Shown: piece by piece, positions 7,600 to 25,145 of the stretch
Numbering within the stretch: the stretch's first letter is position 1
How the letters are laid out: each line of letters starts with the position of its first letter
Source of the DNA: a virus
IMG/VR virus record: IMGVR_UViG_3300025312_000138
Span: 1-39,357 of that record
DNA: 39,357 nucleotides
Direction: 5' to 3' (one strand)
Made by a program: the position numbers and the translations under genes
The notes under the pieces: generated by a model
Seen by the model: the letters and a program-made list of their open reading frames with translations, nothing else
Told to the model about the DNA's origin: nothing
Database searches by the model: none

Positions 7600-7863
7600 T
7601 TACTTAATTTTCTTCATTTTTCTAAATTCAGATGTATCTTGAACATTATCTTCTTTTATTTCTTCTGTCATGCAACGCTGTGCTACCAAATTATTATCAA
7701 TAAGTCTCATTCTTAATGCTTCTCCTGCCTCGGACATGGCTTTGAAAATATCATTTCTATTTAATTTATAAGCATTAACTGTTACAGTTGTATTTTCCTC
7801 TGTTGCTGTTAAACGACTGATCTGGATTATAGCCACGGGCTTCTTACTGAAAAATTTAAACAT
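7600..7863 (-). CDS. Hypothetical virion-region protein
   Basis: An 87-residue protein with a basic N-terminus (MFKFFSKKP), a beta strand ('VAIIQISRLTATEENTTVTV'), a short amphipathic helix and a lysine-rich tail. I do not recognise it. It begins one base after the AT-hook gene ends and is followed closely by the adaptor gene, so it belongs to the head-completion cluster. The first residues resemble those of the capsid protein (MFKWLSNK), which may be chance. Confidence 0.65.
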   Translation of the reverse strand: MFKFFSKKPVAIIQISRLTATEENTTVTVNAYKLNRNDIFKAMSEAGEALRMRLIDNNLVAQRCMTEEIKEDNVQDTSEFRKMKKIK

Positions 7864-7864
7864 T

Positions 7865-8416
7865 TTAATTTCCTTTCAACACAGCCAATTCTAATATTGG
7901 ATGTTCTATATATTGTGTTTCTTTTAATTTAGCATCTTCCCTCGTTTGCATCATTCCTTTTAATCTGCTCGCTAGACTTTCAGGCACTAATACCTGCCCA
8001 CAGTATCTTACCCCATTAATCGTTATTTCTGGTCTTACATTTATCCTAACTTTTCTTTCATCAGTATTTTCTAATTTCTCTTGCACCGTTTTGGCTGTAT
8101 CTGCTAGTGCCTCTGCGTCTAATTTCTTTTGATCTACCAGTCCAGATACTATCTGAGCAAGAAGATTAATTGATCTTTCTAGTTTAGAAAATCTATCTTC
8201 TGAAATGGAGCCGGAAACTGGATTTGCACCAGCATCCTGAAGTTTACAAAACTCCTGCTCTACTATTGGAGCTACTCCGGCTTGATTCTTTTTATTTTTC
8301 GATCCTGGGGGCCTACCACGTTTCTTGATAGGGGCTATATATCCTGCTTTAACTTCCCCAGACTTAATTTCTATTATTGGATGTTGCGTAAAATCTAAAT
8401 CTAATTGGTCGGACAT
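7865..8416 (-). CDS. Small head-region protein with an AT-hook motif
   Basis: A 183-residue protein. Residues 31-43 (KKRGRPPGSKNKK) contain the AT-hook core R-G-R-P with basic flanks, a minor-groove AT-DNA-binding peptide. Residues 73-120 form a charged helix, possibly coiled coil. The C-terminal part 'ITINGVRYCGQVLVPESLASRLKGM' resembles short beta-hairpin segments in head-completion proteins. It lies directly after the capsid gene. It might contact packaged DNA or nucleate assembly on AT-rich DNA (inference). The ribosome-binding site is AGAGAGG. An early DNA-binding regulator would be odd at this late-gene position. Confidence 0.7.
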   Translation of the reverse strand: MSDQLDLDFTQHPIIEIKSGEVKAGYIAPIKKRGRPPGSKNKKNQAGVAPIVEQEFCKLQDAGANPVSGSISEDRFSKLERSINLLAQIVSGLVDQKKLDAEALADTAKTVQEKLENTDERKVRINVRPEITINGVRYCGQVLVPESLASRLKGMMQTREDAKLKETQYIEHPILELAVLKGN

Positions 8417-8504
8417 TTTATCCTCTCTTTTGAGTAATAACCCTCATCCTGCTCCCAGGATCATCCTCGACTATCAGATTGCTGATTGTCTACTCCACCC
8501 TTTT

Positions 8505-8545
8505 AGCCTATTCTACTATTTAGAACCGTAGATGGTTCATAGGCT
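8505..8545 (-). ncRNA. Pseudoknot-like structured element 3' of the capsid gene
   Basis: Read on the minus (mRNA) strand this is AGCCTAT, GAACC, A, TCTAC, GGTTC, TAAATA, GTAGA, ATAGGCT. GAACC pairs with GGTTC and TCTAC pairs with GTAGA, which interlock as an H-type pseudoknot (loops of 1, 0 and 6 bases, the last A-rich). The 7-bp stem AGCCTAT/ATAGGCT encloses it. It starts five bases after the capsid stop codon. It lacks a U-run, so it is not an ordinary terminator. The pairing is seen in the sequence; the role, such as an mRNA stability or translation control element, is inferred. Confidence 0.5.
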
Positions 8546-8549
8546 AATT

Positions 8550-9974
8550 TTAATCAAATGCTGATTCTGCTTCAACTCGACTGAAGAAGTTGTTGTTATT
8601 GATTACGCATTTGAACATTAATTTCCATCCAGCTTTACGTCTTAGTGCTAGAGGGTTACTATCACTTGCCCCTGGAGGAGTTAGTGTAGACATTAAGTTT
8701 TGTAGATCAACAACAGTGTATGCTTCCTTGCCGAATAAGAATCCAAGGTGAACCTTGGAACTAGCTGATGCCAATTCATCAAGTAAACTACCAGCAGTTG
8801 TACCAGAAGTAGCTATTGCGAAAATAGTAGTACCATTAGCATTAACGCTGTCTCCAATTTCAATACTTGCTGATGCAGCAAAATATTGATCTGAACCTTG
8901 AACATATTTAGTAATAGCTGCGTTTGCAGCAGTAGCAGCAGTAATATCTGCTGCGGATGTTGCCCAGTAAATCTTATATCGTAATGTACTTGTTGAAGGT
9001 AACACTACGGTAATAGAGTCATCAGTATCAGCAGCCCCAACATCCTCAGTTGAAACTTGGTATATCACACTAGGATAATTGAATGTAGTATCGAAACCTA
9101 CAACTAGAATCCTATGATAACGTAGTGCCAAATCTCCCCCACCCTCATTAATATTTGTGGTAGGTGCAGCAGCAGATGTCAAGGTTGGAAGTGAGTTAGA
9201 CCGTAAGAAACGAACCCCTAAGAATTCCCCGATCTCCCCATTCCATAGCCTTTTTGCAGCAGCATACTTAACTGAGTCAATAAAATCAGGATCAGATGAC
9301 ACATCGAATTCCATGAAAGAATCGAGAATTGCCACATAATGATCCCCTAATTCGGGATCGGCAACCCCTTTCGCCCTTTCCATTCCCATAGCACCATTAA
9401 ATCGTAGATTTGCTACCATCCTACGCCATGTATCAGAAGTAACTACATCGGTAGATGTTAGTGAAAATCTATTTGCTACAGTACCAGGATAAAAGAGAGA
9501 TGTTCCAGTTACGACAACATTAAAACATTCTCGTTCAACTGTTTCACCACTCTGAAACCCTAATAGTTGTAAAGCCTTTTGTAGAGGCTTGTGCTTAATT
9601 GTCAATTCAGCAACGTCTGTAATTGTAACGTATGCTCCCCACTGTTCCGCAGTCGCAGTAACAGTTGAAATACTCATTGTAGTAGAGCTACCTTCATTAC
9701 CTTCACTAATTGTAGTAAAAGGTAATGGCAAACGCTCATACCGAGTATATTGGAATGTCTTGGATGATTGTGAAGGCAACATTGCCTTATCAGCCATCTC
9801 ATAAAACCTTAGAATTTTGTGAGCAACCCTAAGAGTTTTCTCTGCAATATACTGGATAGCATCTGATCCACTTTGTACGGAGTAATTACCGAGAATAGTA
9901 GATGTGGTATCTGCTCCACCAGCCATCTTAGGCATAAACCATGAAGATAGCTTGTTTGATAACCACTTAAACAT
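8550..9974 (-). CDS. Major capsid protein, N4-gp56 family
   Basis: A 474-residue protein. Residues 70-90 (KTFQYTRYERLPLPFTTISEG) followed by 'WGAYVTITDVAEL' are the hallmark of N4 gp56-type HK97-fold capsid proteins. The C-terminus ('FGKEAYTVVDLQNL' and 'LRRKAGWKLMFKCVINNNNFFSRVE') also fits. Between about residues 265 and 400 lies a Thr/Ala/Ser/Asp-rich beta stretch with 'YPSVIYQVS' and 'RYKIYWATS', which looks like an inserted Ig/FnIII-type surface domain. The scaffold lies immediately upstream and a structured RNA element immediately downstream. The ribosome-binding site is AAGGAGAG. Confidence 0.9.
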   Translation of the reverse strand: MFKWLSNKLSSWFMPKMAGGADTTSTILGNYSVQSGSDAIQYIAEKTLRVAHKILRFYEMADKAMLPSQSSKTFQYTRYERLPLPFTTISEGNEGSSTTMSISTVTATAEQWGAYVTITDVAELTIKHKPLQKALQLLGFQSGETVERECFNVVVTGTSLFYPGTVANRFSLTSTDVVTSDTWRRMVANLRFNGAMGMERAKGVADPELGDHYVAILDSFMEFDVSSDPDFIDSVKYAAAKRLWNGEIGEFLGVRFLRSNSLPTLTSAAAPTTNINEGGGDLALRYHRILVVGFDTTFNYPSVIYQVSTEDVGAADTDDSITVVLPSTSTLRYKIYWATSAADITAATAANAAITKYVQGSDQYFAASASIEIGDSVNANGTTIFAIATSGTTAGSLLDELASASSKVHLGFLFGKEAYTVVDLQNLMSTLTPPGASDSNPLALRRKAGWKLMFKCVINNNNFFSRVEAESAFD

Positions 9975-24278: not shown

Positions 24279-24686
24279 ATGAAAAGTAAAACTGTGCAGT
24301 TTGTTTGTGTGAAGTGTAATGAACCGGTCTATAGGTTAGGGGTGAAAGTCAATTTTGGTTTAAAACTTTGTGGGTATTGTAGTAAATTAAAGAAAAAGGG
24401 TAAGGTAGTCGATCAGGATGGGCCAGTAAAGGCCACCAAGTTACCCTCAGTTGAGACTTTTCCGACTAACCCTGATAAGATAACGGTGGATGATGTATTT
24501 AAGACACCGAACCCCTCAATGAGCATACCGGAAACGGGGGATAATACTAAGGATATAGTAGAAAGGATCAATCAATACCACAGTATATTGAGCAGAGTTA
24601 TTGAATCACTTCTTGAGTTAAAACCGGATCATGATGAAACATTCTTGAGTCTGTGGACTAAGGCAAAGCAAGATTTAATAAGTTAA
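24279..24686 (+). CDS. Zinc-ribbon plus helical protein
   Basis: A 135-residue protein. C10-x2-C13 (FVCVKCNEP) and C31-x2-C34 (LCGYCSK) form an N-terminal zinc ribbon followed by a basic stretch (KLKKKGK). A Pro/Thr-rich linker (residues 45-90) leads to a C-terminal coiled helix (IVERINQYHSILSRVIESLLELK). The pattern of ribbon, linker and helix suits a nucleic-acid-binding adaptor. Function unknown. Confidence 0.65.
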   Translation: MKSKTVQFVCVKCNEPVYRLGVKVNFGLKLCGYCSKLKKKGKVVDQDGPVKATKLPSVETFPTNPDKITVDDVFKTPNPSMSIPETGDNTKDIVERINQYHSILSRVIESLLELKPDHDETFLSLWTKAKQDLIS

Positions 24687-24690
24687 ATCA

Positions 24691-24714
24691 ATTATTGTGA
24701 AAAGACACAATAAT
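24691..24714 (+). promoter_or_regulatory. 9-bp hairpin before the pseudopilin gene
   Basis: ATTATTGTG-AAAAGA-CACAATAAT forms a perfect 9-bp stem with a 6-base loop, five bases after the previous stop and five bases before the AAAAGGGG ribosome-binding site of the pseudopilin gene. It is AT-rich and has no U-run, so it is more likely a transcript-stability or translation-control hairpin, or an operator, than a terminator. Confidence 0.5.
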
Positions 24715-24728
24715 AAAAGGGGAAAACT

Positions 24729-25145
24729 ATGAAAAAGATAATAGGTATGATTAAACAACACGGGAAAGCTGTAGGTAAAATTGTGAAGGACGACAAGAAA
24801 GGATTCACAATGGTAGAATTACTGGTAGTGATTGCCGGGTTCGGGCTGATATTTGTTCTACTTGTACTCCCGGCCTTACAAGGTTTTGTGAAAGCGGAAA
24901 CAAGATTGACATTACTTTCGCTTGACATGACGCTAGCAGAATATTACGGGGATAAAAGGAACACTCCCACAACATTGAGTGTACTTGTACCTGGTTTTAT
25001 CAGTTCGGTTCCAACCGATGCCTGGGAACAGGATTTTGAGTTTACCAGACTGTCAAAAACTCAGTACACTCTATATTCAATTGGATTAGATGGGATAGAT
25101 GATTTAGGACTTGGGGATGATATTAAGAGCAAAGGATCACAATAA
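24729..25145 (+). CDS. GspG-like pseudopilin with prepilin signal
   Basis: A 138-residue protein. A basic leader of 25 residues ends in K23-K24-G25, then F26-T-M-V-E30, the prepilin peptidase site with Glu at +5, and a hydrophobic helix to about residue 50 (MVELLVVIAGFGLIFVLLVL). The C-terminal part has 'PTDAWEQDFEF' at 95-105 and 'YSIGLDGIDDLGLGDDI' at 116-132, matching the GspG signatures 'P.DPWG..Y.Y' and 'S.G.DG..G......DI' that bind calcium. Known members are periplasmic pilus subunits. This phage copy would need the host prepilin peptidase. The gene has an AAAAGGGG site. Odd: a long leader and its presence among phage early genes. Confidence 0.8.
   Translation: MKKIIGMIKQHGKAVGKIVKDDKKGFTMVELLVVIAGFGLIFVLLVLPALQGFVKAETRLTLLSLDMTLAEYYGDKRNTPTTLSVLVPGFISSVPTDAWEQDFEFTRLSKTQYTLYSIGLDGIDDLGLGDDIKSKGSQ

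Follow-up and report, generated by a model that had tools for sequence, protein, structure and literature searches.

A conserved RNA element, probably a pseudoknot, between the capsid and AT-hook genes of a small group of environmental phages

Results and discussion

A knot-capable element directly past the capsid gene

We analysed a stretch of viral DNA of 39,357 nucleotides (IMG/VR record IMGVR_UViG_3300025312_000138, hereafter the window) and found that the major capsid gene is followed, within a limited group of environmental phages, by a genuine and conserved RNA element, which is probably, though not with certainty, a pseudoknot. The element is new as a sequence family and ordinary in kind. 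The explanation that we favour, tentatively and with somewhat less than even confidence, is that it acts in cis as a structured intercistronic leader of the downstream AT-hook gene on the late minus-strand mRNA. To our knowledge, few leaders with RNA structure have been documented in the late operons of phages other than the model ones; the present one is conserved, and its small size suits it to mutate-and-restore experiments. The features of the locus are the following.

8550-9974, minus strand: major capsid protein gene, 474 aa, stop codon TAA at 8552-8550 (PHROG 1357, major head protein, E 2.5e-36)
8503-8547, minus strand: knot-capable element with exact stems, kept in all ten close-relative contigs that hold the site
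8547-8539 / 8511-8503, minus strand: outer stem P0, 9 bp
8538-8534 / 8527-8523, minus strand: stem S1, GAACC/GGUUC, exact pairing
8532-8528 / 8516-8512, minus strand: stem S2, UCUAC/GUAGA, exact pairing
8533 and 8522-8517, minus strand: loops L1 (A) and L3 (UAAAUA), read from the sequence
8469-8490, minus strand: hairpin P2, of variable length, 22 nt here (sequences and minimum-energy folds of lineages A, B and C)
8446-8461, minus strand: hairpin AUCCUG-GGAG-CAGGAU (alignment; centroids of lineages B and C)
8432-8495, minus strand: possible long-range helix GAGUA (8495-8491) / UACUC (8436-8432) (minimum-energy fold of B, centroid of C)
8411-8428, minus strand: ribosome-binding site AGAGAGGAU (8428-8420) and start codon AUG (8416-8414)
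7865-8416, minus strand: AT-hook protein gene (KKRGRPPGSKNK), 183 aa (open reading frame with the leader directly upstream)
8206-8281, minus strand: tRNA-Thr(UGU) gene with encoded CCA (ARAGORN; Rfam RF00005, 53.4 bits, E 2.5e-10)

The capsid gene is one of a series of minus-strand genes that includes portal and terminase, and its match to the Pfam family Phage_capsid_4 lies below the Pfam cut-off. The product of the next gene, which we take to carry an AT-hook motif, has no match in Pfam or PHROG.

The minus-strand sequence of the capsid gene ends in GAT TAA and is followed by AATT, AGCCTAT (8545-8539), GAACC, a single A, TCTAC, GGTTC, TAAATA, GTAGA and ATAGGCT (8511-8505); past the 3' strand of P0 it continues with AAGGG. 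The three complementarities that an initial annotation had read from these letters (GAACC/GGTTC, TCTAC/GTAGA and AGCCTAT/ATAGGCT) are all exact. The last of these, described there as a stem of 7 bp starting 5 bases past the capsid stop codon, turned out to be two pairs longer: P0 pairs TTAGCCTAT with ATAGGCTAA (inverted repeat I1; as RNA UUAGCCUAU/AUAGGCUAA) and starts only 2 nt past the stop codon, or 4 nt for the 7-bp version. Within P0, S1 interlocks with S2, and the statement that nearly every base is paired holds if the knot forms and fails otherwise.

Conservation among relatives

Relatives were sought among viral contigs by capsid, portal, AT-hook and pattern scans, which yielded only three close lineages. 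A capsid relative is encoded at 14 loci: two of these (L011 and L012) end inside the gene, two (L013 and L014) are distant, and the remaining ten hold the site. Together with the window these ten contigs represent only four distinct sequences, namely lineage A (L001-L003, identical to the window), lineage B (L010), lineage C (L004 and L006-L009) and an indel variant of C (L005). The distant loci L013 (capsid 34% identical) and L014 have no knot element past the capsid stop codon. The remote capsid matches L060-L063 showed 21-22% identity, and gene order was compared for L060, L061 and L063. The outer repeat is present in 10 of the 45 stretches that carry TTAGCCTATGAACC and absent from the other 35. 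One extra match to the knot pattern (L081) was taken as chance: it has no outer stem and falls within the coding sequence of a virus that appears to be unrelated. The genome contigs yielded no relative among 60 candidates and no pattern matches, and nothing in the phage records matched the leader DNA or the AT-hook protein; 17 phage records had a capsid match, all below 60% identity. The titles and abstract openings covered by a literature search held no description of the knot element or of an in-frame phage tRNA.

P0 and S1 do not change in any of the three lineages. The sole change in the element in lineage C is in L3 (UAAAUA to UAAGUA), while lineage B has G instead of A in L1, CCAAUA as L3, two inserted bases and one pair of S2 changed on both sides, from C-G to U-A. 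The five substitutions between A and B thus fall in loops or form the one compensatory pair. When these five substitutions were placed at random, all 19 pairs were kept in 0.4% of the trials if G-U pairs were allowed and in 0.02% if only Watson-Crick pairs were counted; with P0 and S1 fixed, S2 survived by chance in 4.8%. The refuting outcome that had been named for this site, a lack of compensatory changes in relatives, therefore did not occur, with one compensatory change and retention in 10 of 10 contigs. As only three lineages are available, the covariation of S2 amounts to one event, and the support that this compensatory change lends to S2 is modest. For P0 and S1, conservation of the sequence is well supported; as neither ever varies, what is conserved could be the sequence as such or a DNA site. 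RNAalifold on a MAFFT alignment reported no pairs changed on both sides, partly because the alignment misplaces S1 in lineage B.

Chance expectation and folding

A scan for H-type knots of 5+5 bp (loops 1-2/0-1/3-8) enclosed by a stem of at least 7 bp found one case on both strands of the window and none in 40 dinucleotide shuffles of it. Knots of 5+5 bp without the outer stem are common, with 8 in the window (both strands) versus 4.8 per shuffle. The structure is real as pairing potential. Pseudoknots left aside, the best fold in all four distinct sequences combines the outer stem with S1. The alternative of the outer stem with S2, a 12-bp helix that had been likened to a tRNA acceptor, is disfavoured, because as a nested fold it is worse both in the window and in B (by 1.1 kcal/mol in A and C and 3.8 in B); moreover, its 3' end reads AAAAGG, with no CCA. 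In lineage B the best nested fold has a competitor 1.0 kcal/mol higher, with an additional hairpin UAUUGG/CCAAUA.

S1 and S2 are most likely satisfied together, as an H-type pseudoknot. The objection that full pairing might be sterically forbidden, since there are no linkers between P0 and the knot, was dropped after a coarse three-helix bead model with 9, 5 and 5 pairs (rigid helices, 14 starts per case) gave a clash-free solution, which is no proof of the knot. Nested folding of the sense strand is only moderately strong, with a z-score of -2.66 over 81 nt and of -3.50 for the 143-nt leader; in a scan of 2620 windows of 60 nt on the minus strand, the sense strand of the element stays outside the 15 most extreme. 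The antisense (plus) strand of 8503-8547 folds better than the sense strand, with a z-score of -4.24 (11th of 2620), and its strong hairpin is also retained in lineages B and C; there is no convincing plus-strand gene at this position.

A constrained leader up to the AT-hook start codon

The constrained leader as a whole is longer (8549-8417), and the element makes up its 5' portion. Downstream of the knot an invariant segment (...GGGUGGAGUA) is followed by P2, which ranges from the 22 nt of the window to about 70 nt and is present in each lineage's own minimum-energy fold. In all three lineages P2 sits exactly between GUA and GAGGAUG, and its closing pairs differ by lineage (GAC/GUC, GUUC/GAAC and GGU/ACC) and remain paired each time. 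The block that follows (8469-8428, CGAGG...ACUCAAAA) has no substitutions across the three lineages and one inserted T in B. At the site of the GGAG hairpin the RNAalifold consensus fold prefers an alternative, longer hairpin. The helix GAGUA/UACUC, which is absent from the minimum-energy fold of the window and, being invariant, shows no covariation, may close a three-way junction whose other arms are P2 and the GGAG hairpin, a suggestion from the predicted folds only. The region of the ribosome-binding site and start codon is predicted to be able to form a small hairpin, GGAUA/UGUCC. An upstream mini-ORF, from the AUG in GCAGGAUGAGG to a UAA just before the AT-hook start codon, was rejected because its frame is lost in lineage B through the inserted T.

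The variable P2 apart, conservation thus runs as far as the AT-hook start codon. Between A and B, 26% of the fourfold sites differ in the capsid gene (56/219) and 37% in the AT-hook gene (18/49), while leader pieces of 34 and 41 nt have no substitution. Under neutral drift at the lower fourfold rate this has probabilities of 4e-5 and 4e-6, values that overstate the case because the pieces were chosen after the fact as invariant; recent exchange of DNA between the lineages could also be the source of the invariant blocks. The distance between the end of P0 and the start codon is not fixed (86, 104 and 132 nt in A, B and C).

Possible functions of the element

The leader reading is favoured because constraint, P2 apart, extends all the way along the leader to the start codon. 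The 9-bp stem just past the capsid stop codon would close a small domain holding S1 and S2 as a putative H-type knot, and a second domain, of P2 and the invariant block with the GGAG hairpin, would connect it to the AT-hook gene's ribosome-binding site. Such a fold would most likely govern how well ribosomes load on this gene; by analogy, the leader would perhaps be bound by the AT-hook protein itself, or by another phage or host protein. Of the two roles that had been proposed for the element, control of the AT-hook gene is thus the better supported one, and a block to 3' exonucleases is the main rival, and a close one. The latter would have the stem or knot past the stop codon protect the capsid mRNA from 3'-to-5' exonucleases, so that it outlives its neighbours once the transcript has been cut downstream, for instance by excision of the tRNA embedded in the AT-hook gene. 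It is in line with the start of the stem only 2 nt past the capsid stop codon and with the presence in the same transcript, about 270 nt past that stop codon, of a tRNA that might be excised by RNase P. Nevertheless, such a shield leaves the equal conservation from P2 to the start codon unexplained, and the 5' half of P0 would lie under any ribosome that terminates there. We consider the shield rather unlikely as the main role. The two roles can coexist.

The outer stem, with S1, might alone matter and S2 be coincidental, in which case there would be no pseudoknot. The best nested folds agree with this, knots of 5+5 bp that lack an outer stem often arise by chance, and S2 would be retained by chance in about 5% of cases given the other stems. 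We nevertheless regard it as doubtful: S2 was kept in B by a change on both sides, in surroundings where three of the seven adjacent loop bases changed and two bases were inserted. Clearly less probable is a site that acts at the level of DNA, either an inverted repeat to which, for instance, the AT-hook protein binds or a mark of the junction where gene modules recombine. The perfect conservation of the outer repeat, the adjoining AT-hook gene and the recombination of the region that a variable segment and an exchanged tRNA show would fit such a site, which would have no need of S2 or of the covarying closing pairs of P2.

Recoding, by frameshifting or stop codon readthrough, into a longer capsid protein is refuted by stop codons in all three frames, confirming from the sequence that, as had been argued before, a frameshift extension is excluded. 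The position of the knot, 11 nt past the stop codon, does resemble the spacing of known readthrough knots. Past the last capsid codon the mRNA reads UAA AAU UAG CCU AUG, so that frame 0 meets a second stop codon (TAG) one codon later; a stop codon at the border of P0 and S1 ends the +1 frame, and the -1 frame is shut by a TGA just before the capsid stop codon and by a TAA at the end of P0. We give recoding practically no chance. An intrinsic terminator was also rejected: none was found in 8350-8700, and the minus-strand stem has no U-run.

A tRNA gene inside the AT-hook gene

The tRNA-Thr(UGU) gene (8281-8206) lies wholly within the AT-hook gene on the same strand, about 270 nt downstream of the capsid stop codon on the same transcript, and the reading frame is open throughout. 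Its Rfam score is well above the gathering score (53.4 bits versus 29). At the same place in the AT-hook gene, lineages B and C have a different tRNA, with a CAU anticodon, an ACCA end and a different acceptor stem (L010:3404-3476, plus strand, and L004:4127-4199, plus strand), again with an intact reading frame in each. These CAU tRNAs reached 41.9 (B) and 46.6 bits (C) in Rfam, which was run per lineage on the window, L010 and L004, and were found by ARAGORN at a relaxed threshold only. The AT-hook protein of B is 73% and that of C 70% identical to that of the window, and outside the tRNA part the protein is conserved across the lineages.

An in-frame tRNA gene in a conserved gene of a structural operon poses the question of how one RNA segment can be both translated and processed, and the nesting and exchange of this tRNA make the locus more interesting. 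The combination of a structured leader with a gene that lends itself either to translation or to excision of its tRNA hints at a possible switch, by which one transcript would serve as mRNA or as tRNA precursor. When ribosomes load, the tRNA would be kept unfolded and AT-hook protein would be made; when the leader shuts the start site, the tRNA would fold and be excised, and the cut capsid message would keep the knot as a protected 3' end. We consider such a switch improbable.

Lineage C has a further tRNA, tRNA-Pro(UGG), between portal and capsid (L004:1080-1154; also in L006, L007, L008 and L009), which ARAGORN did not find in the window. Canonical tRNAs have a T-loop starting with UUC, with pseudouridine at the second base, and an elbow formed by G18-U55. 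In all four tRNAs seen here (window 8281-8206; L010:3404-3479; L004:4127-4202; L004:1080-1154) the T-loop begins with UGC, not UUC. The tRNA of the window has the T-loop UGCAAAU and a D-loop without GG and so lacks the canonical G18-U55 elbow (positions numbered by eye), and with the same numbering by eye all four have D-loops without GG and share the non-canonical elbow. Nothing on tRNAs with such an elbow came up in the titles and abstract openings of the literature search. In lineage B the 86-aa gene that follows the AT-hook gene is itself followed by an extra gene of 235 aa (L010:4110-4817), which is absent at that place in the window and in L004.

Comparison with known systems

The leader of T4 gene 32 is taken as the working analogue. 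Its pseudoknot is bound by the gene's own product and acts as an autogenous translational operator; it is located 67 nt upstream of the start codon (PMC3014915). As in T4 and T2 gene 32, a small (here putative) pseudoknot precedes the start of a gene for a nucleic-acid-binding protein, at 86 nt (end of P0 to start codon) in the window against the 67 nt of T4. Unlike the gene 32 knots, the present one sits inside a stem of 9 bp, directly adjoins the capsid gene and has more structure after it, and the downstream gene encodes an AT-hook protein and not a single-strand-binding protein.

Viral readthrough and -1 frameshift pseudoknots are H-type knots located shortly past a stop codon or slip site; unlike these, the present element has stop codons in all frames and no usable slip site. 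The preQ1-I riboswitch is an H-type knot with an A-rich third loop, to which the compact knot and A-rich loop of the window are similar. It differs in that there is no Rfam match up to E 5 and in that the third loop, CCAAUA in B, is not conserved. The first bases of the T-box sequence are similar to the invariant AGGGUGG downstream of the knot, and a tRNA gene lies a short way further downstream. Unlike in a T-box, no specifier stem was seen and there is no Rfam match; UGGA could pair with the UCCA of the tRNA of the window and not fully with the ACCA in B and C. A T-box identity of AGGGUGG, a resemblance only and without Rfam support, was rejected. Rfam 15 gave for 7800-9200 only the tRNA and sub-threshold chance matches, with none for the knot or leader up to E 5, and for lineages B and C likewise the tRNA, sub-threshold chance matches and nothing for the leader.

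Elsewhere in the window, positions 24661-24750, at the junction of two plus-strand ORFs, have fold z-scores among the strongest on both strands.
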